A DNA stretch of 44,286 bases, from positions 1 through 44,286 of IMG/VR virus record IMGVR_UViG_3300037264_000664. One strand, given 5' to 3'. Shown here piece by piece: positions 2 to 39,862 of the stretch (positions within the stretch are counted from its first letter, which is position 1; the number at the start of each line of letters is the position of its first letter). The position numbers were made by a program, and so were the translations under genes. This stretch comes from a virus. Below the pieces are notes generated by a model that was not told the DNA's origin, did not search any database, and was given only the letters and a program-made list of their open reading frames with translations.

Positions 2-1771
2 TACAACCGGGGCGGTGCGGTAGGCCCGTCGGCCATCTATCCCGGCTCTGGCCAGAGCTTCACGATGCCGCGGCCACTCCCGCCAAACACGATCGAGATG
101 CCACCCATGACGCCGAAGTCCACGGCGTTGACGGTGCCGGGCGCCGCGCCCGCCGCGCCGACGGGGCGGCTCGGGCTGCCAGCGCCAACGGCGCCGCTAG
201 CCCTGCCAGCGCCGACTCCGCTTGCGCAAGTGGACCTGAGTGCACCTCCGGGGCGGACTGCGATGGCGCGCGCGCCCGGCCCGCCGCGCGTCCCTGGCCA
301 ACTCGGCCCGCGCAGTTTTGCCGTCGATCCCACCACGGTGTCAGGCATCGGAGACATTCCGCAGGCCCGGGGTCGGCTTGCGCGCGCCGCCATCAGGGTG
401 GCCCAGGCCGGGCCGGCAATCGCCGGGACCGTCGCAAATGCGGCGGCGGACAAATTGTTGGCGCCGTCGCCCGGTGCGGCTGCGCCAGGCACTGGCGTAC
501 CACAGGGGATTCCGGGCATCGGCGACATGCAGCCCGTGCCAGCGCAGGCGCCCAGTTTCTTCCGCGACACGGAGGTCGGCCGCAACGTCGGGAACATCAT
601 CAACGCGATTCCCGGCGCCCGCCCGATCGCGGGCCCGCTATTCCGCGCTGGCTCGATGGCCCAGCGGGCAACCGCCGTCGGCGGCGAGATGGTGCGCGCC
701 GCGGCGTCGTCAAACGCCCTGGACGCGCCGCCTCAATTCCCCCAGCCGGCGCCGCAAAGCGTTGGCGCGCCGCTGCCCACGCCACAACAGATCGAGGGCT
801 TCGTCGCGCCGGGCGACATCGGCGCCGGTGCCGGCCGCGGGCTCGTCAATCCGCCCAACGTGCAGCCGGGCGGCGTGGTGACGCGCAACGGCAATGCGTT
901 CTCTGGCCAGAACATCGGCGAAGGGTTCGTCTACGCAGACGGCAGCAGGAGCCCGAATCAGATCGGCGTGGCGCCAGGCGGCGGAACTGGCGGCACGCCG
1001 TCGGTGGACGCAGCACTCGCGGCGGCGCGCAGCGCAGCGGCGGATCGCGGGGATTTCGGGGCTCTCGGCTTGCCGGGTGGTTCGGCGCCCGGCCTGTCTG
1101 GTGGCGGAGTCTCGGGGATCGACCTGGGAAGCGTCCCGGAAGGCGCGCGGCGCACCGGCCACGTGACCGCGCTCAATGCCGACCAGTTCGACCGCGACCG
1201 GGCTGCCTACCTGACTGAGCAGGCTCTGCGCCTGGGAGGCAAGGCGGGGCCGGCGCAGGCCAGGGCTATCACTGAGGCGGCTGCGGCACAAGGTGCCGAA
1301 CGCAGCGCGCGCCTGCGCGACACAACGGGCCTCGCCATTGCGAAAGGACAAACCGCCGCACAGGCAGCGACTGCAGGCGCTCAAGACCGCACCACGCGTC
1401 GCGGCCAGGACATCGGCGCAATGACGCATGCGAGCTCCGATAAGCGGGCGTTGGACGTGGCAAACATCCAGGCCGGCGCGCACATCAAGGGTGCTCAACT
1501 CGGCTCGGACTCTCGCGTGACGGCCGTGGAGGCGCGTGCGCAGCGCTACCAGCACGTTCCTGGCGGTCAGGAAGTGCAGGACATCGGCGGCCTTCCCCAG
1601 CTTGTCAAGCGCCCGGATCGGATGTTCGACAGTCACACGGGGCAGTTCCTGGACGCCTCGCCTGCCCAGGCAGGCCTGACAGACACACCCGAGAGGTTGG
1701 CCATCAAGAATGACCAGAAACTGACGCGGGATCAGAAGATTGCCAAGCTGAAAGCACTGGACGCAAAGTGA
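2..1771 (+). CDS. Partial virion-associated protein, Pro/Ala/Gly-rich, 5' end cut by window edge
   Basis: The reading frame is open from base 2 with no stop before base 65, where the first ATG lies, so the true start probably lies outside the window. The visible part is 589 residues ending at TGA 1769-1771. The first ~350 residues are rich in Pro, Ala and Gly. The last ~200 are Ala/Gln/Arg-rich and probably helical, with a more ordinary soluble tail after 'RYQHVPGG'. I recognise no catalytic motif. The stop overlaps the GTG start of the giant polyvalent gene (GTGA), so the two are translationally coupled. Position and composition suggest a structural or ejected internal protein. This function is inference; only the frame and coupling are seen. 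Confidence 0.75.
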   Translation, partial: YNRGGAVGPSAIYPGSGQSFTMPRPLPPNTIEMPPMTPKSTALTVPGAAPAAPTGRLGLPAPTAPLALPAPTPLAQVDLSAPPGRTAMARAPGPPRVPGQLGPRSFAVDPTTVSGIGDIPQARGRLARAAIRVAQAGPAIAGTVANAAADKLLAPSPGAAAPGTGVPQGIPGIGDMQPVPAQAPSFFRDTEVGRNVGNIINAIPGARPIAGPLFRAGSMAQRATAVGGEMVRAAASSNALDAPPQFPQPAPQSVGAPLPTPQQIEGFVAPGDIGAGAGRGLVNPPNVQPGGVVTRNGNAFSGQNIGEGFVYADGSRSPNQIGVAPGGGTGGTPSVDAALAAARSAAADRGDFGALGLPGGSAPGLSGGGVSGIDLGSVPEGARRTGHVTALNADQFDRDRAAYLTEQALRLGGKAGPAQARAITEAAAAQGAERSARLRDTTGLAIAKGQTAAQAATAGAQDRTTRRGQDIGAMTHASSDKRALDVANIQAGAHIKGAQLGSDSRVTAVEARAQRYQHVPGGQEVQDIGGLPQLVKRPDRMFDSHTGQFLDASPAQAGLTDTPERLAIKNDQKLTRDQKIAKLKALDAK

Positions 1772-4700
1772 GCCAGTACGAGGACTACCTCGATCAGCCT
1801 GATCGCGTCGATCCATACGGCGCGTATCTGGACCTTGGCGCGCCGCCGCGCAAGGCGACCAAAGCCGGCGCGGGTGTCGTGCGCACGCTGGCTGACCAGG
1901 CCCTATCTCTCGGGCAGGGTGTTGTCGGTGGCGTCAAAGCACTGGTCGACATCGGTGGAACCGGGACGGCCGCCAGCCGTGGACTCGGCACCCTAAACCA
2001 GGGTATCGAAGGCCTCTACTCACCGACGCGCACCGCTGAGAAGCAGGCACGCCAAGCGACGATTGAGGAAGCGGACACGTCCGGCGGGACGTTGGATCAG
2101 GTCACTTCCCGCCTTGGCGGCTTCGCGGAAGCTCCGGCCCAGACACTTCTGCAAGGCATCGGCTCGATGGCGCCTACGGTGGCCGCCGCCGTGCTGAGCA
2201 AGGGGCGCACGCTTGCCGCGTTGCCGGTCGGCGCGGCGATGGGGGTTGGCGGGATCAAGGGCCAGAACTACGATGCGGTGAAGGCCGAGGCAACCAAGCA
2301 GGGCCTGGGCGAAGCGCAGGCCGAGCAATTGGCCAGCCGAGCGTCCGAGTACAACTTGAGCAACGCTCCCCAGCAAGCGCTTGGCGGCGCGCTCGGTGCG
2401 CTGGATGCTGGATTCGGCGTGGAGAGGTTGCTTAGCAATATAGTCCGCGGCACTGTGAGCCCGGCGAGTCGGCTGAAACGCGTCGGAATCGGAGCGATCG
2501 AAGAAGCGATCCCGGAGGGGCTGCAAGGATCACAAGGCCGGTACGCCCAGAATCTGGCGTTGACCGAGGCGGGCTTCCCGACCGACCTGATGAGCGGCGT
2601 TGTCGGGTCTGGCGTTCACGATGCGGCGGTCGGTGCAGCGCTTGGCGCCGGGGCTGGGCTTCCTGGGCGGCGCGCATTGGCTGCGCAGCAGAGCCCCGAG
2701 TCCATACCGCAGCCCATACCGTCACCCGGCGACCCGATTCGAGCCGGCAGTCTCCCGGCGGCCGGTCCGCTGACCAACGCCGTCAATATCGGGATCGAGG
2801 GCGAGGCGCAAGCGGCCGACGTCGGCGTCCCGACAGAGGCTCCGATTGCCGCGGGGCTTGCCGGGGTGCCGAGTACGGATGCGCCGCATCCGGACACCAA
2901 AAAACCACGGGGCGGGAAAGCCGCGCCCGGCCCACTCGAAGCGGTCGCGCCAGAAGGCGGCACCGAAAAGCCGACCTTCGACCCGACCACGGGCGAGATC
3001 ACGCCGCCGCAGCGCGCCAGTTGGCCGACCCGAGAGGCCGTCGATCAATACCTGACCCAGCAGCGCGTCAGTGGCGGCGCGAAGACGGGGAAGGCCGCGC
3101 CGGTTGAACTCAAAGGCGGCGGGTTCAGTTTCCTGCGCGAGGGCGAGCCCGGGTACGAGGAAGCGGCAGCAGCCAAACCGCTGCCCAAGCTCGCTCAGGG
3201 AAAGCCGAAATCTGCCAAGCAGACGAAATTGCAGGAGCGCCGCGCGAAGGCCGAGGAGAAAAAGGCGGCGAAGGCGGCGAAGGCGAGTAGTGTGCCAATC
3301 CAGCCGGAAACCGCGCCGGAAACCCCAACTACTCCCGCGCCGACGGTCGACGAGGCCGCGCATGTAGCTGCAACCTCGACGCAAAACGAGTTGCCGCAAC
3401 CAACTCAGGCCCAGAAGGAGGCCGGCAACTACCAGAAGGGCCACGTCGCGGTAGGCGGCCTGGACATCAGCATCGAGAACCCGCAGGGCTCGACCCGCAG
3501 CGGCACCGATCGCTCGGGCAAGGCCTGGACGGTCAAGATGGCCCACCACTATGGCTACATCCTGGGCACTGTAGGCGCGGACAAGGACCACATCGACACG
3601 TTCATCAAGCCGGGCACCGCCGAGGACTACGCCGGGCCAGCTTTCGTCGTCGACCAGGTCCACCCTGAAACTGGCAAGTTCGACGAGCACAAGATCATGC
3701 TCGGGTTCCCCAGCGCGCTGGAAGCCCGGCGCGCCTACGCCAAGAACTACGCGAAGGGCTGGAAGGGGCTCAAGAGCATCACCCCGGCGAGCCTCGACGA
3801 ATTGAAGGCATGGCTGGCTGGCGGACACACGAAGACGGCGTTCTCCACCCGACCGACCCCGATCGAGCAACAAGTCACCGCACATGGGGCGCCAGGCACC
3901 CCAATTGGGGTGAAAACAGAGGGTGTCCCCACTGCCCCCACTGTCCCCGCGCCGACGCAGAAAGCGCCCGCTGGGTTGCCCGCGGGTTCGATGGCCGCAC
4001 CGGCGGACGACGTTGTGCGAAATCTGCGCAAGTTGTCACACGACACCGAGGCGCCAGGCGACGTCATGCTCGGAAACGACAAGTTCGTGAGCATGGACGA
4101 GGCAATTGCCGCAGCTCGAGCAGCGATGACCCCGCGCGAGCATGGCATGCCATTCCAGTTCATGCGCGTGCTGGACATCTCCGGTCGTGACTTGAAGCGG
4201 ATCGTTGCCGCAATGAAGGAAGGAGCACCCAATGCCGAAGCAGTACGAAGCGATGAGGAACAAGTTCGCCCAGGGGGCACCGAAGGACAGCCCAGCGTAC
4301 AACCAGGCCCAGAGCAAGGCGGCGGCGATCTACAACAGCCGCCACCCGAAGCAGCCGGTGACCGGGGCGTCGGAGCCGAAGGCCCGAAAGAAGAAGTAGC
4401 CCCGAAGACGCTGCGCGAGCGCCGCCGTGCGGCGGTTGCGGAGGCCGCCCAGAAGCGCGCGGATCAAGAAGCCGCCGCCGGTGGCAATCCGCATGTCTGG
4501 TCAGGGCGCGCCGCCCGCAAAGCTGGGCACTCTCGCACTCCACCACCTGAAATCACGGGCCGAAGACACATCAAGATGTGGCTTGAGGGATGGGATGCCG
4601 CGGGCCCTGCGGAAGCCCCAGTAGCCAAGGCGGAAGATACCCAGGGAGCCGGAGCTACCGGAGAGAAGACGCTTGCCGATCTGGTGAAAGCGATCGACAA

Positions 4701-7700
4701 GAAGTTGCCAAAGCCCGAAAAGAAGCAAACCGACCTACAGCGGCGCCGGGCCGAATCGAAAGCGAAGAAGGGCCAGGGCGCCGCGGAAACCGGGCGCATC
4801 TTGGGCGAGAACAGCGACGGCAACAACGTCCTCGAAGACCCCAGCGGCGTGCGGTCCTACGTCACCAAGGAAGGCGTGCGCGTTGAAGAAACTGTAGCGC
4901 TCACACCGACCCGGCAAGGCATCGTGACTTCCCCCGTCAAGCCGCGCGCCGCCGAGTTCAAGACGGCGGAAGAAATCAGCGCTGAACTTGCCCCCCCGAC
5001 GACGACTCCAACGAAAGAGGCACCCGATGATTCCGCCACTCCAATCCCTGCGCCGCCGGTCGATCAGCCGATGGTTGAGCGAGCAGCCGGCAATGGCGAA
5101 GCTCCCTTCCGCGGAGCTATCCTCGAAAGTGGAATCCCTGGACCAGCAGATGATGGAGGTCTTCGAGGAGGAGGAGGACCAATTGAGGGACTCAATGATG
5201 CGGGCGGGAACCTGGGGAACGGGCGCGGGGATGGGCTCCTTCCCAATGGACCGCCTGACAATCTGGGAGACCGTCAGAAACGAGTATCTCCCGACCTTGA
5301 CTACCGACCAGGAATCGGAGACCTGACGCGCACGGGTTCGTGGTTCGAGACGGCCGGCCGCAACGTCGACATCATCGAACTGGCAATCAAGATCGACGCG
5401 GAGAAGCGCGCCGCGACGCCCGAAGAACAGGCCCAGCTGGCAAAGTACGTCGGTTTCGGGGCAGGGGAAATCGCCAACGCCCTGTTCCCTGTCCCTTCGG
5501 AATGGGCGCGCAAGCAGGAACCGGCCCGCCTGATCTGGCCCGATCTTGTCGCGCAGCGCGAGAAGCGCTGGGGGCCCCTGGCTGAGCGGCTCGCGGCCCT
5601 GCCGGTCGAATGGCAGAAGTCGATCCTGCAGTCCACCCAGTATGCCCACTACACCAGCGAAAACATGGTGCGGTCCATCTGGGCGGCAGTAGGGCGTCTA
5701 GGGTTCACTGGCGGCAAGATGTTCGAGCCTGGCGGTGGCATCGGCACGTTCCCGATGCTGATGCCCGAGAGCATTCGCAAGGACTCGAAGTACACAGCGA
5801 TCGAGTTTGACGGACCCACTGCATTGATCTCCAGGCTGCTGACGCCTGGCCAGAACATGCTGCATGACGACTTCATCAAGCGCAAGGTGCCGCGCAACTA
5901 CTTCGACTTGGGCATCGGCAATCCGCCGTTCTCGCAGACTCCGATTCTTGGTGACCCGGACTACGCCAAGTTCGGGTTCATGCTGCACGACTTCTTCTTT
6001 GCCAAGACGATCGACCGCGTGCGCCCGGGTGGCCTGCAGGTATTCGTCACCAGCAAGGGGACGATGGACAAGCAGAACGCCAAGGCGCGCAAATACCTCG
6101 CCGCCCGGGCCGACCTGTTGGGCGCCATCCGTTTGCCGTCCACCGCTTTCCAAGGCAACGCCGGCACGAGCGTCGTCACAGACGTCCTATTCCTGCGCAA
6201 GCGCGCGGAGGGAGAGGCGCCGGCCGGCGAGGCGTGGCAAGACCTCAAGAGCGTTGACACGCCCGATGGCCCGGTGCTCATCAATGAATACTTTGCGAAG
6301 AACCCGCACATGGTTCTGGGGCAAAACCGCATCAGCGGCAACACCGACGACAAAGGGCGGCGCATCAACAGCAACGGCCGCGGCGGAGAGAAGTACACCG
6401 TGGTCAGCTACGACGAGACTCCGGCCCAGCTCGACGCGAAATTCGCGAAGGCCGTTGAAAGCCTGCCGCAGAACGTCTATTCGACGATGACCGCCAGCGC
6501 AGAGACGCTGCGCCAGCAAACCGCCAAGATCGAATTCGATCCGAAGATCAAGCGCGAAGGCGTGATCTACGTCGCTGCTGATGGCACCCTGATGCGCGTG
6601 GAGAACGGCGCCGGCCGGTCGCTGGCTACGATGGTGCGCCTGTCGGCCAAAGACACGGCCTGGCTCAAGGGCTACGTGGGGATTCGCGACGCTGTGCAAT
6701 TGGCGCGTGCAGCGCAGGTCGCCGATGGCGACTGGCAGGCCGCACTGAAGACACTGAACAAGGTCTACGACAAGTTTCTCAAGGACCACGGGCCGATCAA
6801 CGCGTTCCGCATTCAGGTCTACAAGCGCACCGACGAAGAAGGCAACGAGACTGAGGTTCCAAGGCGCGTCCTCACGAACCGCCGCTTGTTTCGCGAAGAC
6901 TACGACCAGGCGCTCGTCACGCAGATTGAGCAGATCACTGACGATGACAAGATCATCAAGGCGAAATTCCTGCGCGAGCGCACGATCGGCAAGCCCCTCG
7001 TGCGCGAGGTCAAAACAGTAGGCGACGCCCTCGCTGTGTCGCTCGATGAGCTGGGCCGCTTCGACCCGAAGGACGTGGCCAAGCGAATCAACTTGACTCA
7101 GGAAGAAGCGCTGGATGCCTTGGGCGCCGGGGTCTACAAGACGCCACAAGGCGAGTGGCAACTGGCCGACGAGTACCTGTCGGGCGATGTCGTTGCAAAG
7201 TTGGCAGAAGCGCAGCACGCGGCGCGTGATGACGCCTCGCTTGAGCGCAACGTCGCAGCACTGAAAGAGGCCCAGCCGGAGAAACTCGGGCCGTCGCAGA
7301 TCAGCCCGAAACTCGGCGCCTCATGGGTCGCTGCCGAGTTCGTCAGCGAATTCGCGAAAGAGATTGAAGCCGGCCATGTGACATTCGACGTCAAGACCGA
7401 AAGTTGGCAGGTGACGGGTAGCGACAAGCGCTCTGAGCGTCGGGCGGGCGCGGACTACGGCAGCGCCGATCGGTCGTCGTCTGAGTTGCTCGAAGCCATG
7501 TTGAACAGCCGCGACATCGTGGTCAAGTACGGCAGGAGCGCCGGTGAGGATCTCGCCGGCAAGGTCAACCCCACCGCCACCACCGCAGCAAACGAGGCCG
7601 CGAGCAAGATTCGCGAGAAGTTCCGTTCATGGGTATGGACCGACTCCGAGCGCGCGGTGACGCTGGTTGAAACCTACAACGAACGGTTCAACAACCTGGC

Positions 7701-10700
7701 GGGCCGCAAGTTCGACGGCAGCCACATGACATTGCCTGGCTTGCGTCAAGGCTTCGTGCCACACGCGCACCAGCTGCGCGCGATCTGGCGACAGATTCAG
7801 ACTGGGAACACCTATCTGGCGCACGCAGTGGGCGCAGGAAAGACGTTCGAGATGATCGCCGGTGGCATGGAACAGCGCCGCCTGGGCCTCATCAGCAAAC
7901 CGATGTACGTGGTGCCGAACCACATGCTCGAACAGTTCTCGAACGAATTCCTTGAGTTCTACCCGCTGGCGAACATCATGGTCGCCGACGACGAGAATTT
8001 CCACACCGACCGGCGCCGGGCATTCATCGCCGCAGCGACTCTCAACGCGCCCGACGCCATCATCATCACCCACAGCGCGTTCGAGCGCATCGGCGTGAAG
8101 GCCGAGAGCGTTGACCCAATCCGGGATCAAGTCATCGGTGATCTGCAAGCGGAACTGGACGACTCGGACAGTTCGGATCGCGTTCGGCGCAAAAACCTGG
8201 AACAGCAGATCGAGGCGGTGAATCAGCGCTTCGATCGCATCCTGGCGGCGGGGGGCAAGGACTCGACGATCAAGTTCGAGGACATGGGCGTCGACTTCGT
8301 CTATGTCGATGAGGCGCACGACTACCGCAAACTCGATTTCGCGACGAATCAATCGGTCAAAGGCGTCGATCCCAAGGGCTCAAGGCGAGCCATGGACATG
8401 TACGTCAAGACGCGATACCTGGAGAAGAAGTCGCCGGGTCGGTCGATGGTGTTTGCCACTGGTACGCCGGTGACGAACACGATGGGCGAGCTCTACACGA
8501 TCATGAAGTTCTTCGCGCCGGAAACACTGTCGCGCGACGACATCAGCACGTTCGATGCGTGGGCGCGCATGTTCGGCGAAGTCGTGACGGACCTCGAGAG
8601 CAATGTCGCGGGCAGGTATGAACCCGTGACGCGGTTTGCCAAATTCGACAACGTGGTGGAGTTGATGACCCGCGTCCGGCAGTTCATGGACGTGTTGACC
8701 TCCGATAGCCTGGGCGCACTTGTCAAAAGGCCAGACGTCGCTGGGGGCGGGCCACACATGATCGTCGTCGAGCCGACTTCGCAATTGCGCGACTACATGC
8801 GAACCGTGCTTGCGCCGCGGGTCGAGACATCAAGGAAATGGAAGCCCTCTCCGGATCAGCCGAACAACCCTGATCCGATGCTGAACATCATCACCGATGG
8901 GCGCTTTGCGGGGCTCGATCCGCGCTTCTTCGGTGCCAAGTTGGACCCCGGCACCGTGACGCCGCTGACGAAACTGGGCGAGACGATCATCGACGAGTAC
9001 AAGGCAAGCGCGGACAACCCATATGCCGACGCAGCCGGAAAGGTCGAAGCCCTCAAGGGCGGCACGCAGATCGTGTTCTACAACCTCGGGTTTGGCGCGC
9101 AGTCGATGGCGAACCGTGGCTTCAACGCAAGGCTGGCGCTGAACAAGCAACTCACGGCCGGAGGCGTCAAGCGCGAGCACATCGCATGGTTCGACGAGGC
9201 CAAGACCGACGCTGCGAAGGAGGCCTTATTCAAGGCCATGCGCGCGGGGCAGATTCGGGTGCTGATCGGGTCTGCCAAGAAAATGGGGACCGGGGTGAAC
9301 GTGCAGAAGCGGCTGACTGCGCTGCAATACCTCGATCCGCCGTGGTTTCCGGCCGATGTCGAACAGCCGCACGGGCGCATCTTGCGCCAGGGCAATCAGA
9401 ACGATGTCGTGCGTATCAACTGGTTCGCGGCGAAGGGCAGTTACGCTGAAGCGATGTGGCAAATGGTCGCGCGCAAACAGCGTTTCATCGACCAGGCATT
9501 CCGTGGCGACAAGACCATGCGCTCGATGGAGGACATGGACGAAGCGAGCCAATACGCGCAGGCCTCGGCACTGTCCAGCGATGACCCGCGCGCGATGCAG
9601 TTGGCGGGACTGCGCCAGGACGTCACGCGCTACGAAAACTTGCAGCGCGCGCATGCGAGCGAACAGATCGCCGTCAAGGACGCCATTCGCCAGGCGACAT
9701 ATAAGGCAGAAAACCACGCCAAGCGGTTGGCGGTTTTCGAGAAGGCATTCAAGGCGATCGGCGGGGAGCACATCTACTTCGAGTCCGGCAATGTCAACGG
9801 CAAGGAGTACGCCAAGTCGAAGGAATTCGGCCAGGCGCTCAAGGATCGGTTCAACCAACTCATCGCCGATGCAGTCCTGAGCCCGTACCAGGAGAAGCGC
9901 CCGCTTGGTTCGATTGGGTCGGTTGAACTGTGGATTCGACATCTAACCTTCTACGACACGGGCCTGAAGGCCCAGGTGCCTGGATCCACGTTCCAGCTGA
10001 TGGCAACGGTCGGCGGTCTGGACCTGGACGTGATGACCACCGAGGGGATGGGCAGCGACATCGACGATCAGGGTTTGACGAGACGTGTCCTCAACTCCGC
10101 AAATTCACTCAGTGGCTCCGTGGACCACGAACGCGACGGGTTGAAGGAGCAGCAAACCGAACTGACGCGCCTGAAGAAGAAATTCGGCGCCCCCTTCGAG
10201 CACGCGCACCAGATGGCCGAGAAGTACGGCGACTTGAAACGGCTCGAGGCGGAACTCGAAGCGGAAGGAAAGGCCAAGCCCGCGGCGCCGGCCGCGGCCG
10301 TCGAGCCGGAAGGCTCCACCAATCTGCGCCAGACCGGCGCGCCCGAGGCGAACACCACCGACACCGTGCAGTTCTCGGTTGTATCGGCTCGCGCATTCAG
10401 CAAACCAAAGCCCATCGGGGCCGACTCAGGAGTGAATTTCAACCGTGAAAAAGCCGTTGCAAACCTACCCGCTTCCGTGCGAGACGATCCATTCTTCGGG
10501 CCTGAAAAAACCGCGATGCGGAACGTTCACGCCCGCACCGCGCTATGGGACAAGCTCCAAGCGTTTGGCAAGGAACAGGGACTCCCGCCATACACCCTTG
10601 GTGTTGACAGCATCGGCAACATCACGGTCGGAAAGCCCGCCCCCCAAATCGCGCTGAAGCTGCTTGCGGAGTTCGCCGACGCGAACGACACAGGGGTCTA

Positions 10701-13700
10701 CGTTCTTGCACAGTCCGCGCAACAAAGCGTCGAGAAAATCTCGGCCTATCGCCCGATTGGGTATGAGCCGACGACGGGCCTCGGCCTATACGGGCAGAGC
10801 CGCGGATCGGGCGGGACATCCGATGGATTGGGTTTTGCTACGTTCGCCTACAAGCCGCGCGGCATTTCTGAGTTCATGTTCGCTGTCGGGGATGCCCCAG
10901 TATCCGAACGCGGCCCAACGGCGCAGAATATCGCCAATGCACCCGCCAGCCTCGCCGATCGAAACGCCACCGCCAAGCTCCAAGCCAGCATCAATACCGT
11001 CTGGCCTGATTTTGTGCTGGACCCTATTTCTGCGCGAGCTGCAGGCAAGGGCAGAGACGCCCTCTCCGAGCTCATCAAGCGAGTCTTCACCACCCGCCGA
11101 GTAGTCTGGTTCCAGGCGAATCACCTGTTCGCCGATGGGGTTCACGACCAGAAGCAGCGCGACGTTATCTTCCTGAACGTGCGTTCGCAGCGCCCGCACC
11201 TGGCGGCGGCCGGGCACGAGATGCTGCACGCCCTGAGCCTCGAGCAGCCGGCGCTGTATGCGCAACTGCGCACGCGCATCCTGGCCCTTGGCAAAGACCT
11301 CGACCTGCGCCACGCGCGGCTACAGGGAACCCGCATCAAGGTACTGGGCGAAGACGGCCGCATGACGCTTGCCGGGCTCGAGGAAGAATTCATTGCCGAT
11401 GTCGTGGGCGATAACTTCATGGACCCGAAGTTCTGGCAGATGCTGGCCAAGGATCAGCCCTCGGGCTTCCAGGCGGTGCTGAAAGCGATCCTGAATTGGA
11501 TCGATGACGTTCTCTCGAAGATACGCGCCCAGACCCCCTTCGGCACGAACGAATTCCTGACCGACATGGTCGCGGCGCGCAAGGCGGTTGCGGAGACGAT
11601 CCGCGCATTCGCCCCGGCGATCGACGAGGGACTGTCTGGCGCGGACATCAATCTGAGCGTTGCCGCCCAGGCACCGCCGTTCTACAGCGCGCTTGCGCGT
11701 CAGGTCGAGAAGTCTGCAATGAAGCAGGGCGACGCCGCGGCGTGGAAGCAGGCCATCAAAGGGATGGTCAACAGTGGTGTCGTGAAGGCGGACGAAGTTC
11801 AATGGACCGGCATGGACGAGTGGCTCGACCTGCAGCAAGGCAAGATCACGCGCCAGGCGGTAGGCGACTTCCTCAACGCCAACGGCGTGCAGGTAACGGA
11901 GACGGTGCTGGGCGATGGCGCGCCGACGCCGCTGAAGTGGGGGAAAGAAAGCGCGGAAGACGAAAACGACGAGTCGTTCATGGAGAGCGCCGACGGGTAT
12001 CGCATCGTGCGCGCCGCTGATGGCGCCCTAAGCATCTACACCCCGGACGGCGACCAAATTCACGGCGATATCTTCGGCGACGAACGTGCGAAGGAGTTGG
12101 CAGCAGCAGACGCGGCGGGCGATGACGGAGCGACCGTCACCAAGTACGGCCAGTACCAACTCCCCGGCGGACCGCTTTCCCGCGACACCGAAATCCTCTC
12201 GCGCGAGGGTTGGCTGCGCATGGACGAGGTTCAGGTCGGCGACATCGTGATGACGCGCCGCGACGATGACGGCGCGCTCGAATGGCAAGAGGTCGAGGCC
12301 GTGCCGACCGTGTTCGCGGACAAGCTCTACCACTTCAAGAACCAGTCGATCGACATGCGCGTCACGGCTTGCCACAACATGCTTGTCAAGCGACGCCGCC
12401 GCAGCTCGGGCGGGCTGTTCCGCGCCAAGGCGGCCGACCTGTGGACGATGGCGGAATGCGTTGCGCCGCTGGTTGGCGAGTGGGCCGATGGCGCCGCGGC
12501 GCCGCTGTACGGGTACGCAGCCCAAGATGCGGCAGAACTGATCGGCTGGTACATCGCCGAAGGCTCTGCCGTGACCGAAGACGGCAAAAAGTCCACGCTT
12601 GCAATCTCTCAAAGCCGCGAGGCAAACCCGGCCAAGTGCGACCAGATCGAGGCGCTGCTTGGCCGGATGGGCGTCGCCTGGAACTACGTCGAAAGCGGCC
12701 CGGCCTACTACCTGTCGATCAAGTCGATGGATCGCGGACTGGTGGCGTTGCTTCACGCGCAAGGGAAGTCGCACGACAAGTACATCCCCGGCTTCATGTT
12801 TGAGCAGCCGCGCAGCGTCATCGTGGCGCTGATGGATGGGCTGCTGCTTGGCGACGGCAATCTTGCGTGCAAGGACAGCCCGACGCGCGAGCCGCGCTGG
12901 GCCTATCACACGATGAGCAAGCAACTCGCCGACGACATGCAGGCATTGGCGCTGCTGTCTGGCGTGCGCGGCACCATCAGCCAGCGGCCGACCGGGCTGT
13001 ACGAGGTCAGGCTCAACTCAAAGCAGTGGGCCAGCATCGACGACGCGAAACACGCCATCGTTGACTACAACGACACCGCCTACTGCGTGACCGTGCAGAA
13101 CCATGCGATCTACGTTCGCACGGGTGGCGTCGCCGCGTTCACTGGAAACAGTAACTACCGCGAGGTGCTGTTGACGCTGCCGCGTGGCGTGGTCAACAAA
13201 CTCGACGACGCGGAGATCGCGGCCGAGGGCACCAACCCAACTAGCGGTAAGCCGTATGTCCGCTTCAACTGGCATGGGCAAACCTACGTTGTTGAGCGCG
13301 AGGCGGGCGAGTCGTCACGAGACGCAATGCTCCGGCGCATCAACAGTGACCGCGAGGGGCGTGGCGCGGGCGAAGTAAGGCCGCAATCTGAGTTCCGCTC
13401 CAACCACTGGGACCAGCCCAACGTCCTCGCCCACATCCGCCTGAACGACCGCACCGACGCCGACGGCAAGCGCGTGCTGTTCGTCGAGGAGATCCAGAGC
13501 GACTGGGGGCAGGCGGGGAAGAAGAAGGGCTTTGCCACTGGTGGCAGCCCGGCGCGCGACGCATTCAAGGCGTTCGAGGCCGACGTGCGCAAGCGCTTCC
13601 GCGAACAGGTCATCGGCGAGGCTACAGAACTGAAACCAGAGCGCCGCGAAGCCTGGGCCGACACGATCGTCAACAACTCGACTATCGGCGACATGGCTCG

Positions 13701-16700
13701 CGCGGTTGGCGAAGGCGAGAGGGCGCGCGAACTGCAACGCGCCGAGATGGAAGAAGAATCGGCGGCCGGCAAGACGGTTCCAGCCGCCCCCTTCGTCGGC
13801 AAGACCGACGCCTGGGTCAGCCTGGCCATCAAGCGCGTCATCAAGATCGCAGTCGATGGCGGGTATGACCGCGTGGCTTTCGTGAACGGTGACCAATCTG
13901 CGCTGCGCTACAAGGAAGCGCTGATGAAGGCGGTGGATACCATTGCGATCAAGCGCAACGATGGCGGCACATACACGCTTGATGCCTTCAAGGATGGGGC
14001 GGCCGTGCATGAAGAAACGCACATCGGCGCCGAGAAGGTGCGCGAACTGCTTGGAAAGGCCGGCGACGACATCATCGCCAAAGCCGACTCTGGCGTGGGC
14101 GCTGATGCCGGCGGCTACGTCACCATCAAGACCGGCGACATGGACATCGGAGGCGCGGGCATGCGCGCCTTCTACGACAAGATCGTCCCCAACGTCGCCA
14201 AGGAAGTGCTGCGCAAGGTGGGTGGCGGGCAGATGAAAACGGTTGACCTTTCATCGCCCGCGCTGGCCGAGACGCGCCGCAGGATGGGTGTGGCCACTGT
14301 CGACGCAAAGCAACAACCGGGATTCGACATCACCCCCGCCATGCGCGAGAAGGCCGCAGGCGGGCTGCCGATGTTCAGCGTGGCCAGCAACATCGAAGCC
14401 GGCCTCAACCGCGCGCGCGACATCAATCTGCCCCTGCGCTACAAGCTGGGCGACCTGTTCAACGACAACGGGCGCCTGAACTGGTGGCACAAGACTGTGG
14501 GCACGATGCACAACCTGGCGCAGCGCAGCCCGGCGTTCCGGCGGGTCTACGACACGACCCAGAACTTCCTGAATGACGTCAGCTACTACGCCACCGAGGC
14601 GAGCAGCTTGGCGCCGACGATCCTGCCGAAGCTCGAAACCTGGAAAGACATCGGCAGGACGCCCCTGTCCGCTGCGGACACCAAGGCGCTCGCCGGCCCT
14701 GTGTTCGAGGGCACCTTGATGTGGACGCGCGACGCGAATGGCACCCCCGTCCCTCAGCCCGACGTTCAAAAGGCGGGCATCGTTTGGACCGACGCCGAGT
14801 TGCGGTCGAGATTCCAGATGACGCCCAAGCAGATCGACCTCTACCGCCAGTTCCGCGCCACGATCGACAAGAGCCTCGAGAACCTCGCGATCAGCGACAT
14901 GCTGCGCTACGGCGGCGCGGACGTTGCCAAGGTGCGCCAGCAGGCCCTCGATGCGGGAAGCGTGGACGCTGCGGCGATGGTGCTGCACGACCACCTGGTG
15001 GAGTCGGCGGCAGAGGATGAGGACCGGGCGCCGCTCCTGCTGAGTACCGCAAAAGCCATCATGGACAAGGCCGAGCGCGCGAACGACTTGATGGCGCGCG
15101 GCTATGCGCCGCTTTCACGGTTTGGGCAGTACACACTGGATGTGGTCGACGGCGCTGGCGAGCGCGTCTATTTCGGGCTGTTCGAGACGGCCAGGGAGCG
15201 CTCGCGCAAGGCCCGAGAGATGCGGGCGGACAATCCCCGGGCGAGGATCACCCAAGGCACGGTTTCGGAGGAAGCGTACCGGCTATTCGCTGGCGTCACC
15301 CCGGAAACGCTGGAATTGTTCGGCGGCATGCTGGGCCTCGAAAGTCAGGGCAGCAACGCGGCGAGCCAGGCTTTCCAGGAGTACCTCAAGATCGCGCGCA
15401 GCAACCGCAGCGCATTGAAGCGCCTGATCGAACGCAAGGGCGTTGCCGGGTTCTCTGAGGACGCCGGGCGCGTGCTCGCGGGCTTCGTGTATTCAAACGC
15501 GCGCCAGACCAGCAGCAATCTGCACATGGGCGAGTTGACCGAGTCCATCGAGGCGATTCCGCAGGGCGCGGGCCAGTTGAAGGATCGGGCCGTCGCGCTG
15601 GCAGAGTACGTGAAAAACCCGACGGAGGAAGCGCAAGGATTGCGCGGCTTGTTGTTCGCGCAGTTCCTGGGCGGGTCAGTTGCCGCAGCGATGGTCAACA
15701 TGCTGCAGCCCGTGCAGGTCACGCTGCCCTATCTCAGCCAGTTCGGCGGGATTGCGAAGGCCGCGCGCCAGATGCTCGCCGCCGTGAAGGACGCAAACAA
15801 GCGCCTGACGGGCGATGCCGCGCTGGACGCTGCGCTGCACAAGGCGGCGGAAGAAGGCATCGTGTCGCCGCAGGAGGTCCACCAGCTGATGGCCCAGGCG
15901 ATGGGCCGCGGCGCGCAGCGTTCCGGCGACGGGACGCTGATGGGCAATCTGTCAGCCAGGGGCATGAACTACACCGCCAAGCTGCTGTTCGGGTGGGGCA
16001 AGGTATTCGGGGTGGCGGAACAATTCAACCGGCGCGTGACGTTCATTGCGGCCTACCGGACCGCGGCGGAGCAGGGGCGCAGCGACCCCGCTGGATTCGC
16101 CTCGCGCGCGGTGGCGGAAACCCAGTTCACCTACAACAAGGGCAACAAGCCGGCTTGGGCGCGCGGCGCCGTCGGCTCGACCCTGTTCACGTTCAAGCAA
16201 TACTCGATCAGCTACCTCGAGCTCCTGCACCGCATGTGGACCCAAGGCGGGGCCGATGGCAAGCGCGCGACCCTGCTGGCTCTGGGAATCCTGTTCCTGA
16301 TGTCCGGCGCCGGTGGCCTGCCGGGCTCCGACGATCTGGACGACCTGATCGACGGGTTCATGCAGAGCGTCATGGGCCTGAACTTTTCGAGCAAGCGCGC
16401 CAAGCGTGAATTCTTCGCGGAAACGCTGGGGCTTGGGGCCGATGGCTCGCGCTTCCTTGAGCACGGGCTGTCGGGTCTGCCCGGCTCGCCGATTGATGTC
16501 TCGGGACGCCTGGGGCTGGGCAACCTGATCCCCGGCACGGGCCTGCTGACGCGCAAGGCGGACCACACGGCGGACGTTGCCGAGATTGCCGGGCCGGCCG
16601 GAGATGTAATCAAGCGCACTTTCCAGGCCGGCGGCAAACTTCTCACCGGCGACGTGAAGGAAGCGCTCGGCCTGATTTCGCCGATCGCCGTGCAGAACCT

Positions 16701-17130
16701 CATCAAAGCCAATGACATGGCCACCACCGGCATGTATCGCGACAAGTCCGGGAAGAAGATTCTGGACGTCGATGGTTACGACGCGGCAATGAAGGCGATC
16801 GGCTTCCAGCCGGTCGACGTGGCGCGCGTCCAGGAGGCCAGCAGGACCGCGGCGCAAATGATCGGGTTGAACCGCATGCGGGAGACGGAAATTGCCGATC
16901 GGTGGGCGCGGGCGATCTTCGAGAAGAAGCCGGAGGACATCGCGGCTGCGCGCGACTCGTTGCGGGATTGGAACGTCGACAACCCGCAGTCGCCCATTCG
17001 GATCGTGCCCAACCAGATCAAGACCCGCGTCGAAGCTATGACGGTGGATCGCGCGACCCGGCTGCAAAAGACCGCCCCGAAGGAAATCCGGGCCCAGGTC
17101 CATCGTGAATTGCAGTTGAACCAGCGGTGA
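1768..17130 (+). CDS. Giant polyvalent protein: methyltransferase-helicase-metalloprotease with intein, 5120 aa
   Basis: One uninterrupted 5120-residue frame, GTG start overlapping the previous stop. Domains in order: hydrophobic Ala/Gly-rich N-terminus (~30-310); pyrophosphatase-like polyvalent domain (~570-692, InPase family); short Rmf/CrpP-like segment (~906-944, ends MWLEGWD); N6-adenine methyltransferase with EPGGGIG (1320-1326) and NPPF (1385-1388); SNF2-type helicase with AVGAGKT (2020-2026), DEAH (2181-2184) and GRILRQGN (from 2536); zinc metalloprotease HEMLH (3150-3154); intein (3469-3794); conserved FVEEIQSDW region; LPD38-like C-terminus (~4700-4900, FKQYS motif) with one hydrophobic segment near 4835. 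The family is known from phages and plasmids; methyltransferase-helicase fusions resemble P1 DarB, which protects injected DNA from restriction. I infer a virion-packaged, co-injected protein. No lytic transglycosylase motif was recognised. The linkers at 4232-4399 and 5027-5326 look out of frame (see nested genes). Confidence 0.93.
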   Translation: MSQYEDYLDQPDRVDPYGAYLDLGAPPRKATKAGAGVVRTLADQALSLGQGVVGGVKALVDIGGTGTAASRGLGTLNQGIEGLYSPTRTAEKQARQATIEEADTSGGTLDQVTSRLGGFAEAPAQTLLQGIGSMAPTVAAAVLSKGRTLAALPVGAAMGVGGIKGQNYDAVKAEATKQGLGEAQAEQLASRASEYNLSNAPQQALGGALGALDAGFGVERLLSNIVRGTVSPASRLKRVGIGAIEEAIPEGLQGSQGRYAQNLALTEAGFPTDLMSGVVGSGVHDAAVGAALGAGAGLPGRRALAAQQSPESIPQPIPSPGDPIRAGSLPAAGPLTNAVNIGIEGEAQAADVGVPTEAPIAAGLAGVPSTDAPHPDTKKPRGGKAAPGPLEAVAPEGGTEKPTFDPTTGEITPPQRASWPTREAVDQYLTQQRVSGGAKTGKAAPVELKGGGFSFLREGEPGYEEAAAAKPLPKLAQGKPKSAKQTKLQERRAKAEEKKAAKAAKASSVPIQPETAPETPTTPAPTVDEAAHVAATSTQNELPQPTQAQKEAGNYQKGHVAVGGLDISIENPQGSTRSGTDRSGKAWTVKMAHHYGYILGTVGADKDHIDTFIKPGTAEDYAGPAFVVDQVHPETGKFDEHKIMLGFPSALEARRAYAKNYAKGWKGLKSITPASLDELKAWLAGGHTKTAFSTRPTPIEQQVTAHGAPGTPIGVKTEGVPTAPTVPAPTQKAPAGLPAGSMAAPADDVVRNLRKLSHDTEAPGDVMLGNDKFVSMDEAIAAARAAMTPREHGMPFQFMRVLDISGRDLKRIVAAMKEGAPNAEAVRSDEEQVRPGGTEGQPSVQPGPEQGGGDLQQPPPEAAGDRGVGAEGPKEEVAPKTLRERRRAAVAEAAQKRADQEAAAGGNPHVWSGRAARKAGHSRTPPPEITGRRHIKMWLEGWDAAGPAEAPVAKAEDTQGAGATGEKTLADLVKAIDKKLPKPEKKQTDLQRRRAESKAKKGQGAAETGRILGENSDGNNVLEDPSGVRSYVTKEGVRVEETVALTPTRQGIVTSPVKPRAAEFKTAEEISAELAPPTTTPTKEAPDDSATPIPAPPVDQPMVERAAGNGEAPFRGAILESGIPGPADDGGLRGGGGPIEGLNDAGGNLGNGRGDGLLPNGPPDNLGDRQKRVSPDLDYRPGIGDLTRTGSWFETAGRNVDIIELAIKIDAEKRAATPEEQAQLAKYVGFGAGEIANALFPVPSEWARKQEPARLIWPDLVAQREKRWGPLAERLAALPVEWQKSILQSTQYAHYTSENMVRSIWAAVGRLGFTGGKMFEPGGGIGTFPMLMPESIRKDSKYTAIEFDGPTALISRLLTPGQNMLHDDFIKRKVPRNYFDLGIGNPPFSQTPILGDPDYAKFGFMLHDFFFAKTIDRVRPGGLQVFVTSKGTMDKQNAKARKYLAARADLLGAIRLPSTAFQGNAGTSVVTDVLFLRKRAEGEAPAGEAWQDLKSVDTPDGPVLINEYFAKNPHMVLGQNRISGNTDDKGRRINSNGRGGEKYTVVSYDETPAQLDAKFAKAVESLPQNVYSTMTASAETLRQQTAKIEFDPKIKREGVIYVAADGTLMRVENGAGRSLATMVRLSAKDTAWLKGYVGIRDAVQLARAAQVADGDWQAALKTLNKVYDKFLKDHGPINAFRIQVYKRTDEEGNETEVPRRVLTNRRLFREDYDQALVTQIEQITDDDKIIKAKFLRERTIGKPLVREVKTVGDALAVSLDELGRFDPKDVAKRINLTQEEALDALGAGVYKTPQGEWQLADEYLSGDVVAKLAEAQHAARDDASLERNVAALKEAQPEKLGPSQISPKLGASWVAAEFVSEFAKEIEAGHVTFDVKTESWQVTGSDKRSERRAGADYGSADRSSSELLEAMLNSRDIVVKYGRSAGEDLAGKVNPTATTAANEAASKIREKFRSWVWTDSERAVTLVETYNERFNNLAGRKFDGSHMTLPGLRQGFVPHAHQLRAIWRQIQTGNTYLAHAVGAGKTFEMIAGGMEQRRLGLISKPMYVVPNHMLEQFSNEFLEFYPLANIMVADDENFHTDRRRAFIAAATLNAPDAIIITHSAFERIGVKAESVDPIRDQVIGDLQAELDDSDSSDRVRRKNLEQQIEAVNQRFDRILAAGGKDSTIKFEDMGVDFVYVDEAHDYRKLDFATNQSVKGVDPKGSRRAMDMYVKTRYLEKKSPGRSMVFATGTPVTNTMGELYTIMKFFAPETLSRDDISTFDAWARMFGEVVTDLESNVAGRYEPVTRFAKFDNVVELMTRVRQFMDVLTSDSLGALVKRPDVAGGGPHMIVVEPTSQLRDYMRTVLAPRVETSRKWKPSPDQPNNPDPMLNIITDGRFAGLDPRFFGAKLDPGTVTPLTKLGETIIDEYKASADNPYADAAGKVEALKGGTQIVFYNLGFGAQSMANRGFNARLALNKQLTAGGVKREHIAWFDEAKTDAAKEALFKAMRAGQIRVLIGSAKKMGTGVNVQKRLTALQYLDPPWFPADVEQPHGRILRQGNQNDVVRINWFAAKGSYAEAMWQMVARKQRFIDQAFRGDKTMRSMEDMDEASQYAQASALSSDDPRAMQLAGLRQDVTRYENLQRAHASEQIAVKDAIRQATYKAENHAKRLAVFEKAFKAIGGEHIYFESGNVNGKEYAKSKEFGQALKDRFNQLIADAVLSPYQEKRPLGSIGSVELWIRHLTFYDTGLKAQVPGSTFQLMATVGGLDLDVMTTEGMGSDIDDQGLTRRVLNSANSLSGSVDHERDGLKEQQTELTRLKKKFGAPFEHAHQMAEKYGDLKRLEAELEAEGKAKPAAPAAAVEPEGSTNLRQTGAPEANTTDTVQFSVVSARAFSKPKPIGADSGVNFNREKAVANLPASVRDDPFFGPEKTAMRNVHARTALWDKLQAFGKEQGLPPYTLGVDSIGNITVGKPAPQIALKLLAEFADANDTGVYVLAQSAQQSVEKISAYRPIGYEPTTGLGLYGQSRGSGGTSDGLGFATFAYKPRGISEFMFAVGDAPVSERGPTAQNIANAPASLADRNATAKLQASINTVWPDFVLDPISARAAGKGRDALSELIKRVFTTRRVVWFQANHLFADGVHDQKQRDVIFLNVRSQRPHLAAAGHEMLHALSLEQPALYAQLRTRILALGKDLDLRHARLQGTRIKVLGEDGRMTLAGLEEEFIADVVGDNFMDPKFWQMLAKDQPSGFQAVLKAILNWIDDVLSKIRAQTPFGTNEFLTDMVAARKAVAETIRAFAPAIDEGLSGADINLSVAAQAPPFYSALARQVEKSAMKQGDAAAWKQAIKGMVNSGVVKADEVQWTGMDEWLDLQQGKITRQAVGDFLNANGVQVTETVLGDGAPTPLKWGKESAEDENDESFMESADGYRIVRAADGALSIYTPDGDQIHGDIFGDERAKELAAADAAGDDGATVTKYGQYQLPGGPLSRDTEILSREGWLRMDEVQVGDIVMTRRDDDGALEWQEVEAVPTVFADKLYHFKNQSIDMRVTACHNMLVKRRRRSSGGLFRAKAADLWTMAECVAPLVGEWADGAAAPLYGYAAQDAAELIGWYIAEGSAVTEDGKKSTLAISQSREANPAKCDQIEALLGRMGVAWNYVESGPAYYLSIKSMDRGLVALLHAQGKSHDKYIPGFMFEQPRSVIVALMDGLLLGDGNLACKDSPTREPRWAYHTMSKQLADDMQALALLSGVRGTISQRPTGLYEVRLNSKQWASIDDAKHAIVDYNDTAYCVTVQNHAIYVRTGGVAAFTGNSNYREVLLTLPRGVVNKLDDAEIAAEGTNPTSGKPYVRFNWHGQTYVVEREAGESSRDAMLRRINSDREGRGAGEVRPQSEFRSNHWDQPNVLAHIRLNDRTDADGKRVLFVEEIQSDWGQAGKKKGFATGGSPARDAFKAFEADVRKRFREQVIGEATELKPERREAWADTIVNNSTIGDMARAVGEGERARELQRAEMEEESAAGKTVPAAPFVGKTDAWVSLAIKRVIKIAVDGGYDRVAFVNGDQSALRYKEALMKAVDTIAIKRNDGGTYTLDAFKDGAAVHEETHIGAEKVRELLGKAGDDIIAKADSGVGADAGGYVTIKTGDMDIGGAGMRAFYDKIVPNVAKEVLRKVGGGQMKTVDLSSPALAETRRRMGVATVDAKQQPGFDITPAMREKAAGGLPMFSVASNIEAGLNRARDINLPLRYKLGDLFNDNGRLNWWHKTVGTMHNLAQRSPAFRRVYDTTQNFLNDVSYYATEASSLAPTILPKLETWKDIGRTPLSAADTKALAGPVFEGTLMWTRDANGTPVPQPDVQKAGIVWTDAELRSRFQMTPKQIDLYRQFRATIDKSLENLAISDMLRYGGADVAKVRQQALDAGSVDAAAMVLHDHLVESAAEDEDRAPLLLSTAKAIMDKAERANDLMARGYAPLSRFGQYTLDVVDGAGERVYFGLFETARERSRKAREMRADNPRARITQGTVSEEAYRLFAGVTPETLELFGGMLGLESQGSNAASQAFQEYLKIARSNRSALKRLIERKGVAGFSEDAGRVLAGFVYSNARQTSSNLHMGELTESIEAIPQGAGQLKDRAVALAEYVKNPTEEAQGLRGLLFAQFLGGSVAAAMVNMLQPVQVTLPYLSQFGGIAKAARQMLAAVKDANKRLTGDAALDAALHKAAEEGIVSPQEVHQLMAQAMGRGAQRSGDGTLMGNLSARGMNYTAKLLFGWGKVFGVAEQFNRRVTFIAAYRTAAEQGRSDPAGFASRAVAETQFTYNKGNKPAWARGAVGSTLFTFKQYSISYLELLHRMWTQGGADGKRATLLALGILFLMSGAGGLPGSDDLDDLIDGFMQSVMGLNFSSKRAKREFFAETLGLGADGSRFLEHGLSGLPGSPIDVSGRLGLGNLIPGTGLLTRKADHTADVAEIAGPAGDVIKRTFQAGGKLLTGDVKEALGLISPIAVQNLIKANDMATTGMYRDKSGKKILDVDGYDAAMKAIGFQPVDVARVQEASRTAAQMIGLNRMRETEIADRWARAIFEKKPEDIAAARDSLRDWNVDNPQSPIRIVPNQIKTRVEAMTVDRATRLQKTAPKEIRAQVHRELQLNQR
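4232..4399 (+). CDS. Overprinted small basic protein inside the polyvalent gene
   Basis: A 55-residue frame, shifted +1 against the polyvalent gene, from ATG 4232 to TAG 4397-4399. A very strong ribosome-binding site (AAGGAAGGAG) sits just upstream. The product starts MPKQYEAMRNKF, contains AAAIYNSRHP and ends in a basic tail, KARKKK. Small phage and plasmid proteins of this look are common and have no assigned function. Of its 55 codons 51 end in G or C, whereas the polyvalent frame over the same bases has only about half G/C at third positions and reads as a Gly/Pro/Gln-rich linker. That points to this frame as the constrained one. Expression has not been shown. Confidence 0.7.
   Translation: MPKQYEAMRNKFAQGAPKDSPAYNQAQSKAAAIYNSRHPKQPVTGASEPKARKKK
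5027..5326 (+). CDS. Overprinted 99-aa protein inside the polyvalent gene
   Basis: A 99-residue frame, +1 relative to the polyvalent gene, from ATG 5027 to TGA 5326, with AAAGAGG six bases upstream of the start. The product is well mixed in composition: a basic N-terminus, an acidic helical stretch (MMEVFEEEEDQLRDSMM), then FPMDRLTIWETVRNEYLP. About 80 of 99 codons end in G/C, against about 47 percent for the polyvalent frame over the same bases, which there encodes a Gly/Pro/Asn-rich linker directly ahead of the methyltransferase domain. I do not recognise the family. It may be an independent gene whose DNA was read through when the giant gene was assembled. Confidence 0.68.
   Translation: MIPPLQSLRRRSISRWLSEQPAMAKLPSAELSSKVESLDQQMMEVFEEEEDQLRDSMMRAGTWGTGAGMGSFPMDRLTIWETVRNEYLPTLTTDQESET
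12172..13149 (+). mobile_element. In-frame intein with LAGLIDADG homing endonuclease, class 3-like
   Basis: 326 residues (polyvalent residues 3469-3794) interrupt a continuous extein motif: YQLPGG upstream and SNYREVLLTLP downstream. The N-terminal splicing block reads PLSRDTEILSREGW, an intein block A but with Pro at position 1 instead of Cys or Ser. Block B is TACH (Thr3533, His3536). The two LAGLIDADG helices are LIGWYIAEG (3591-3599) and LMDGLLLGDG (3688-3697). Block F is YCVTVQNH with Cys3773 at the position usually Asp. The C-terminus is FTGN, with Thr two residues before the terminal Asn, and Ser is the +1 residue. Cys in block F plus Thr in block G without a position-1 nucleophile is the class 3 pattern known from the mycobacteriophage Bethlehem DnaB intein. 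The usual block B Trp appears to be Met3538. Confidence 0.9.
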
Positions 17131-34567: not shown

Positions 34568-35038
34568 ATGGACCCAAGACCACCAGTCGAATACTCCGAG
34601 CTGCTTGCAGAAACGATCTTCGAGTACCTCTCCGAGGGTATCTCGATGAAAATGATCTGCGAAAAGCCGGGTATGCCCTCGTATTCGACGGCCAGGCGGT
34701 GGGAGCGCACGCGCAAGGACTACGCCGAGAAGGCGATGATGGCCCGCACGGTGGGCTGCCACTACCTCGCTGACGAGTGCCTCGAGATTGCCGACGATTC
34801 CAAACGAGACTACGTCGCCACCGACCGCGGCCCGCAGTTCGACCACGAGCATGTGCGGCGCGCACAACTGCGCATCGACACCAGAATGCGACTGCTCGAA
34901 AAGTGGGCGCCGATGCTGTACGGCCAGAAGATCGACCACTCGCACTCAGGCACCGTGAAGGTCGAGAAGATCAAGTACGTCATCATCGACCCAGCACCCA
35001 AGCCTGTGGCGCCCGATGCCGGCAGAACTGATCTTTGA
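34568..35038 (+). CDS. Terminase small subunit-like protein
   Basis: ATG 34568, 156 residues. A helix-turn-helix-like N-terminus (EGISMKMICEKPGMPSYSTARRW) is followed by a helical core with the sequence pattern of small terminases (ADECLEIADDSKRD...HVRRAQLRIDTRMRLLEKWAP). It would recognise the packaging site and deliver DNA to the large subunit, which begins inside its last codons (23-bp overlap). The start is just downstream of the terminator, so the promoter for this operon is not obvious. Confidence 0.8.
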   Translation: MDPRPPVEYSELLAETIFEYLSEGISMKMICEKPGMPSYSTARRWERTRKDYAEKAMMARTVGCHYLADECLEIADDSKRDYVATDRGPQFDHEHVRRAQLRIDTRMRLLEKWAPMLYGQKIDHSHSGTVKVEKIKYVIIDPAPKPVAPDAGRTDL

Positions 35039-36356: not shown

Positions 36357-36359
36357 TCC

Positions 36360-38435: not shown

Positions 38436-38454
38436 GCACCTCGAGGAGAACACG

Positions 38455-38682
38455 ATGTCCAAACACAGCACGGTAATACCCGGCGGTTACGGCCCCGACG
38501 ACTGGCAAGCCAAAGCAGACATGCGCACGCTTGTCGAGGCCCAGTGCATCAAGAACGACCCAAAACGCTTCGCGAAGGCGAAGAAGTGCGCCCAGCAGGA
38601 GGCCGAGGAAATCGAACAGGCATTCGACACCGAGCCCGCCGAAGACGGCGCCGGCAAGAAGGACAAGGGCGACCCGTACTAA
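38455..38682 (+). CDS. Small acidic/basic head protein, 75 aa
   Basis: ATG 38455 with GAGGAGA upstream. The product starts MSKHSTVIPGGYGPDDWQAKAD and ends with a charged Glu/Lys/Asp-rich tail. It lies between portal and scaffold, where small head-assembly proteins are common. Family not recognised. Confidence 0.65.
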   Translation: MSKHSTVIPGGYGPDDWQAKADMRTLVEAQCIKNDPKRFAKAKKCAQQEAEEIEQAFDTEPAEDGAGKKDKGDPY

Positions 38683-38706
38683 CCCCACAACAAAAGGAAC
38701 TGATCC

Positions 38707-39666: not shown

Positions 39667-39862
39667 GCGTTTCGGCGGTGCTATAGTCCCCGCCAACGGA
39701 TTCGCACACTCCGCCCAAAAGGTGCGTGCCTCGCTCAGCTAGGGTGCGATAACCCCAGCAGGCCCTCGCAGAGCCTCCCCATTCTGTGTGCCTCGCGGCA
39801 GAGCGGCGATACGGCTCAAAGCATTCCCCATGTTTTGATCTTCCGTATAGGAGCGCCAAGCT
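39667..39862 (+). promoter_or_regulatory. Intergenic region before capsid with extended -10 promoter
   Basis: No gene in these 196 bases. TGCTATAGT (39679-39687) is a good extended -10 box, without a well-spaced -35. Two copies of GTGCCTCGC occur further on (39726-39734 and 39788-39796), which may form RNA structure, and TAGGAG shortly before the capsid ATG is its ribosome-binding site. It would give the capsid gene extra transcription. Confidence 0.5.

Follow-up and report, generated by a model that had tools for sequence, protein, structure and literature searches.

The window analyzed here, a stretch of 44,286 nucleotides covering positions 1 to 44,286 of the IMG/VR virus record IMGVR_UViG_3300037264_000664, contains a short ORF which lies wholly within a much larger one and is read in another frame. 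This raises the question whether the short ORF is a gene in its own right, and if so, how it came to share its bases with the large one. The host gene extends on the plus strand from position 1768 to 17130 and encodes 5120 amino acids when counted from GTG 1768, a provisional start. It combines InPase, SNF2-related and LAGLIDADG-type domains and is therefore a polyvalent gene, i.e., a very long ORF that brings together several mutually unrelated, conflict-related domains. The InPase (inorganic pyrophosphatase-like) domain (PF18823, E 7.5e-56; positions 3406 to 3816, plus strand) is located upstream of the short ORF. The LAGLIDADG-like domain lies at about 12820 to 13020, and its surroundings look intein-like, as judged by eye from Hint-type start and end motifs. 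Further downstream, the region from 35016 to 40957 contains head and packaging genes coding for a terminase large subunit, a P22-like portal and a major head protein. The head module of this phage is probably P22-like.

The short ORF, named F1, runs on the plus strand from ATG 4232 to the stop codon ending at position 4399 and comprises 55 codons (MPKQYEAMRNKFAQGAPKDSPAYNQAQSKAAAIYNSRHPKQPVTGASEPKARKKK), one base ahead of the frame of the giant ORF (frame +1). Its product of 55 amino acids begins with MPKQYEAMRNKF. An SD-like site (AAGGAAGGAG; positions 4216 to 4225, plus strand) is located six bases 5′ of the ATG. In the frame of F1, 51 of the 55 codons end in G or C, exactly as counted in an earlier sequence-only reading of this locus; for the host frame over the same stretch, that reading had given about 28 of 56 codons, and the correct value is 26 of 56. 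The mean GC3 of the host ORF is 79%, and in only 0.26% of its 55-codon windows does GC at host position 1 exceed GC at position 3 by as much as here. Read in the host frame, which is open across all of F1, the stretch is of low complexity and forms a flexible, acidic linker rich in Gly, Gln, Pro and Glu, in agreement with the earlier view that the giant ORF passes through F1 out of frame as a linker. Scanning the linker of the window for relatives gave none.

The length of F1 by itself is no evidence, since many out-of-frame ORFs of such a size exist in the GC-rich host gene. F1 might thus be a chance ORF, with a +1 frame that is often open in a GC-rich gene and a codon pattern which follows from the Gly/Pro/Gln-rich linker. 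The low complexity of the host stretch would suit this explanation, as would the abundance of similar ORFs: in 147 host ORFs, 946 candidate nested ORFs were listed in frame +1 and 183 in frame +2 (84% in +1). It is the homologues which raise F1 above chance.

Homologues of F1 were searched for in IMG/VR with the protein and then with alignments, and 112 non-redundant loci were identified on viral contigs, where redundancy removal was restricted to loci with identical 250 bases around the start and some of the remaining loci may be related. The family shows the conserved pattern MPKQYEA[MI]RDK(F/L) at its start, a variable middle, and then KAAKIYNS.H..PVTR followed by a basic tail. In 32 of these loci F1 is nested in a long ORF continuing on both sides, with the same relative frame in all of them and host ORFs of up to 5138 codons. 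The other 80 loci are non-nested under the rule used, and the majority of them are free-standing; most copies of the family stand alone, with a host-equivalent frame interrupted by stops. Having relatives outside the overlap, F1 is not restricted to its nest in the way a protein created by de novo overprinting would be. The presence of the same conserved protein as a free-standing gene in dozens of phages already refutes a chance ORF. In addition, F1 is nested in AT-rich genomes: two copies occur at 36–38% GC, in host ORFs of 2528 and 2132 codons, and an accidental long open frame is very unlikely there. Taken with the enrichment of SD sites at nested starts and with the better conservation of the nested frame, for which an antisense control gave 0.3% (both described below), these findings make a chance origin hardly credible.

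The hosts of the nested copies carry domains of the polyvalent type, namely InPase (11 of 31), DdrB-type ParB, RadC, methylases, helicases, and others. By blastp, about 23 contexts on the upstream side and 28 on the downstream side can be distinguished among the 32 nested sites, and in the consensus of 31 hosts the overlap itself is the best-conserved stretch. The small-gene tree is poorly resolved, which makes the count of separate nestings uncertain. Two doubtful loci were not relied on, L120 as the sole case in another frame (302 codons, 69% GC) and L081 as a nested F1 host (184 codons). No relative was detected by the search of genome contigs, and tblastn against cultured phages yielded nothing beyond a weak match, N-terminal in position, in Thermus phage phiYS40 (YS40_168, E 5e-3) and one of doubtful value in a faecal phage.

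An SD match of at least five bases to the anti-SD complement was found for 81% of the 32 nested copies versus 53% of the other copies, and for 7–10% of the control ATGs in the same host ORFs (n = 3394). This enrichment points to a translation initiation site belonging to the nested copies themselves and lends weight to the ribosome-binding site which had been proposed for ATG 4232.

The small frame shows the higher identity in 419 of 425 nested pairs. Together with the free-standing homologues, this indicates constraint at the protein level, so the small frame is indeed the more constrained one, as had been claimed. The host frame is constrained as well, as stop avoidance, reduced synonymous change and a shifted composition indicate. 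All 31 nested copies keep it free of stops, where the small protein and genome codon use would predict 1.92 such copies; the observed figure holds partly by construction, because nested copies are defined via an open host frame. A fairer figure without this definitional flaw is obtained from all loci, in which the host frame is open in 45 of 110 versus 5.5 expected; the sample selected by InPase (see below) is likewise not affected by selection for an open frame. At equal protein identity, synonymous codon change amounts to 0.42–0.44 in nested pairs versus 0.59–0.63 in free-standing pairs, and after matching for GC to 0.40–0.43 versus 0.55–0.60. The comparison of synonymous rates across relatives, which had been suggested as a check, hence speaks for dual coding. 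Finally, the host-frame peptide of nested copies contains no Cys or Trp and has a net charge of −3.4 per 50 residues, whereas the same frame in free-standing copies contains 3.6% Cys/Trp and has a charge of +1.8. Since the SD site is kept, the small protein is kept better than the host peptide, and the host frame is free of stops, both frames of the nested F1 copies are under constraint. The agreement of all 32 hosts in frame +1 was discounted as independent evidence, since in these hosts +1 ORFs exceed +2 ORFs fivefold and the host genes themselves largely account for such agreement.

Relatives which keep the host frame while the small frame is broken by stops, the pattern that speaks against F1, were represented by a single case. 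At L052 (positions 10001–10150) a nested copy contains one in-frame TAG, with the remaining small frame and the host frame intact; the other nested relatives keep both frames. Recoding of TAG was rejected for L052, since its long ORFs are devoid of TAG.

The open host frame also bears on the possibility that the giant ORF is in fact two genes, of which the upstream one ends near F1 and the downstream one begins anew behind it, the host frame being open by accident. Partial overlaps of this kind do exist, as in L036 and L150 the upstream ORF stops 28–43 bases into F1, and the giant gene of phage PBC5 is annotated as two ORFs around its copy of another nested family, F2 (see below). However, the host frame is stop-free far beyond the expectation from small protein and codon use, AT-rich genomes included, and cultured phages are annotated with a single uninterrupted giant protein across F2. 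An arrangement of two genes is therefore very unlikely.

The comparison of loci thus indicates that the F1 family is real, that it has free-standing members, and that its nested members keep both frames together with a putative internal initiation site. F1 is very probably a genuine small phage gene inside an inter-domain linker of the giant polyvalent gene, in a stretch that would be translated in two ways.

To what extent F1 belongs to its hosts can be seen from a sample of 80 loci chosen by the InPase domain only. F1 was found in three of them, nested in all three and in the same frame, and it is therefore an occasional passenger in InPase-type hosts. Two of these carriers, L199 and L203 (both at position 8752), are homologous hosts with 96% identity over 160 residues upstream. 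Their nested F1 copies differ strongly in the middle and match in start and tail, which looks like an exchange of alleles in place. Clean empty sites could not be demonstrated at the level of single bases, since the linkers of different hosts are not alignable. Such sporadic presence (3 of 80 InPase hosts), the many unrelated sites and the differing alleles in L199 and L203 could be explained by a selfish insertion, i.e., a mobile element placed in frame into the host gene and carrying an out-of-frame gene which spreads it, similar to the case of phage ShiLan discussed below. However, family profile scans of the 55-residue product revealed no mobility domain such as that of a nuclease or recombinase, and the sites, which are non-homologous, have no boundary of insertion in common apart from the gene with its SD site. 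A selfish insertion is thus unlikely.

The F1 product is predicted by AlphaFold2 to form a two-helix hairpin (H3-13 and H21-37) with a basic tail (mean pLDDT 83). The protein of the window matched no family in PHROG, Pfam or NCBIfam; a sequence search of the PDB gave no match, and Foldseek none below E 1. Weak matches were obtained for other parts of the family, namely to DUF7218 (Pfam) in 4 of 10 F1 members (best E 0.016) and to PHROG 32268 (best E 3.5e-5), and the window protein is unmatched in both cases. Neither a signal peptide nor a lipobox was seen by inspection. Free-standing F1 copies have no single fixed neighbor, but genes for terminase, portal and DNA polymerase are recurrent nearby, and one PHROG for the terminase large subunit matches 10 of the 63 large proteins scanned near such copies. 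As the tail is basic and genes for terminase and DNA polymerase lie close to free-standing copies, a role in binding nucleic acid during packaging or replication may be guessed at, a tentative assignment that is rather doubtful.

F1 exemplifies a wider pattern: several small families are nested within polyvalent genes, and the frame is the same for each of them. A second nested gene, F4, was located in the window via a dip in GC3 at about 5.0–5.3 kb. It extends from position 5027 to 5326 on the plus strand, encodes 99 amino acids (MIPPLQSLRRRSISRWLS...) and lies in the same +1 frame of the host ORF. Its SD-like site AAAGAGG (positions 5014 to 5020, plus strand) is replaced by AAGGAG at the same place in three homologues (L173, L174 and L179). 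These are 45–51% identical to F4 and are all nested in the same frame in host ORFs of 3546–3621 amino acids, and the nested frame shows the higher identity in 6 of 6 pairs.

Further families were obtained by scanning 147 giant ORFs of at least 900 codons for nested ORFs in whose relatives the nested frame is conserved better than that of the host. Every resulting cluster lies in frame +1. When the scan was rerun with controls, the nested frame was the better conserved one in 246 of 380 homologous sense pairs versus 4 of 1379 antisense pairs (0.3%).

The family F2 (MNLNNWIELGRQHWKEFLP..., about 100 amino acids) is nested in 24 loci, with the nested frame better conserved in 187 of 188 pairs. 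Its hosts are DarB-like giant genes, in cultured phages of Klebsiella, Erwinia, Vibrio, Pseudomonas, Agrobacterium, Ochrobactrum, and Microcystis. Nine of these loci (L158, L159, L160, L246–L249, L251, and L252), all with F2 in frame +1, are the cultured phages POI1126, Atu_ph08, Mwe-JY07, LASTA, Itty13, VvAW1, PEp14, Pavtok, and SopranoGao. In the phage records examined, F2 has no gene annotation of its own, and the annotation of cultured phages shows one uninterrupted giant protein across it; in Itty13, the genes annotated at the F2 site are on the opposite strand.

In Sinorhizobium phage PBC5 (L250; AF448724.1, 24209–28463) the upstream giant frame enters the F2 frame directly, both stop together, and the giant gene is annotated as two ORFs. 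L157 was grouped with PBC5. The arrangement in PBC5 may be due to an old sequencing error, a real frameshift, or a fusion. Its hybrid-like appearance would suit ribosomal frameshifting out of the giant frame, which would yield a truncated hybrid in place of a separate small protein, and an old sequencing error would account for it equally well. For F1, however, a conserved Met and SD site mark the start of the family, nested or free-standing, and no conserved slippery site was seen in an informal look, so that frameshifting is highly improbable and independent initiation at the internal site is preferred.

The family F3 (MENQIQAVQGLIDPPTPFDTLQAWKDWAQ..., about 60 amino acids) was found in six or seven loci in giant ORFs, in the same relative frame (L164:15916–16098, L165, L166, L169, L185, L233, and L018), of which L018 carries both F1 and F3. 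F3 and F4 are well supported as nested families. The families F5 to F7, with two members each (L048:11138–11419 and L175; L182:10897–11115 and L208; L187:6307–6522 and L195), are tentative, because the antisense control also yields a few clusters of two or three. Hidden nested genes, which belong to three or four families at the least, thus appear to recur in the giant genes of many phages and to be missed by annotation.

Based on these comparisons, the following course can be proposed. For ribosomes coming from the start of the giant gene, which remain in the host frame, the F1 stretch would encode a flexible acidic linker. The internal SD site would recruit further ribosomes to ATG 4232, from where they would translate in a frame shifted ahead by one base and produce the basic helical-hairpin protein of 55 residues. 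Both products would then be made, the small one by independent initiation at the internal site.

Since F1 also occurs apart from any host, and the majority of hosts have no F1, the small frame is the older reading; that of the host linker is newer and secondary. The sequence-only reading had described F1 as overprinted in the polyvalent gene; the nesting stands, and the direction implied by this term, a small gene arising atop the giant one, does not, because F1 is also found free-standing. The overlap could have originated when F1 was inserted into a linker, or when the genes flanking a resident F1 fused across it; the partial overlaps in L036 and L150 would be in keeping with the latter. Beyond F1, it is moderately probable that giant polyvalent genes serve as a general platform, whose linkers host several unrelated small families, each with an internal SD site and in frame +1. 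One mRNA would thereby give rise to a giant injected protein and its small partners, and existing small genes would be taken in, with their out-of-frame reading becoming new linker.

If this holds true, annotation misses a class of conserved genes within some of the longest phage genes, also in cultured isolates such as Klebsiella phage LASTA, Erwinia phage PEp14, and Agrobacterium phage Atu_ph08. It would represent an unusual route to overlap, in which an old small gene gains a second reading as the linker of a giant, as opposed to a new gene born on an old one. The nested and free-standing copies of one gene would form a natural set for measuring the cost of dual coding, and the question would arise why genes for supposedly injected proteins carry small genes inside.

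Out-of-frame nesting is established in phages, as shown by Rz1 and the HNH endonuclease of ShiLan. Like Rz1 in lambda Rz, F1 is a small phage gene embedded completely, in frame +1, in a larger gene whose corresponding stretch is a flexible linker (PMC6139136). Spanins likewise exist in several arrangements, of which 182 embedded, 228 overlapped, and 118 separated ones were counted in a survey (PMC6139136). However, Rz and Rz1 are functional lysis partners, a small outer-membrane lipoprotein and an inner-membrane host protein, whereas F1 lacks a lipoprotein signal and one family occurs in many unrelated hosts of the giant polyvalent type. In ShiLan, an HNH endonuclease is hidden out of frame in a methylase gene, without a detectable ribosome-binding site, and the host frame reads through without stops, probably as a tolerated loop (PMC11855218). 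There, a homing endonuclease occupies a fixed site; the F1 product is a 55-residue non-nuclease with a strong SD site, found at many sites and also free-standing. In the literature covered, which is mainly open access, no description of genes nested inside polyvalent or DarB-like ones was found. The hosts of F1 correspond to the polyvalent proteins of phages and conjugative elements in being giant multidomain ORFs with InPase, DdrB-ParB, methylase, SNF2 and other domains, and for this class packaging and injection with the phage DNA has been inferred; searching that article by term revealed no mention of overlapping or out-of-frame nested genes (PMC5512222). As in de novo overprinting, two proteins are encoded in shifted frames of the same strand, and the host linker of F1 fits the description of de novo +2 frames as rich in disorder (PMC8227390). 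That review treats the nested or shifted frame as new, and the new frame is usually the small nested gene, whereas here the small gene is the older one and the linker of the giant was added later as a reading. What appears to be new is a recurrent set of several families nested in polyvalent linkers.
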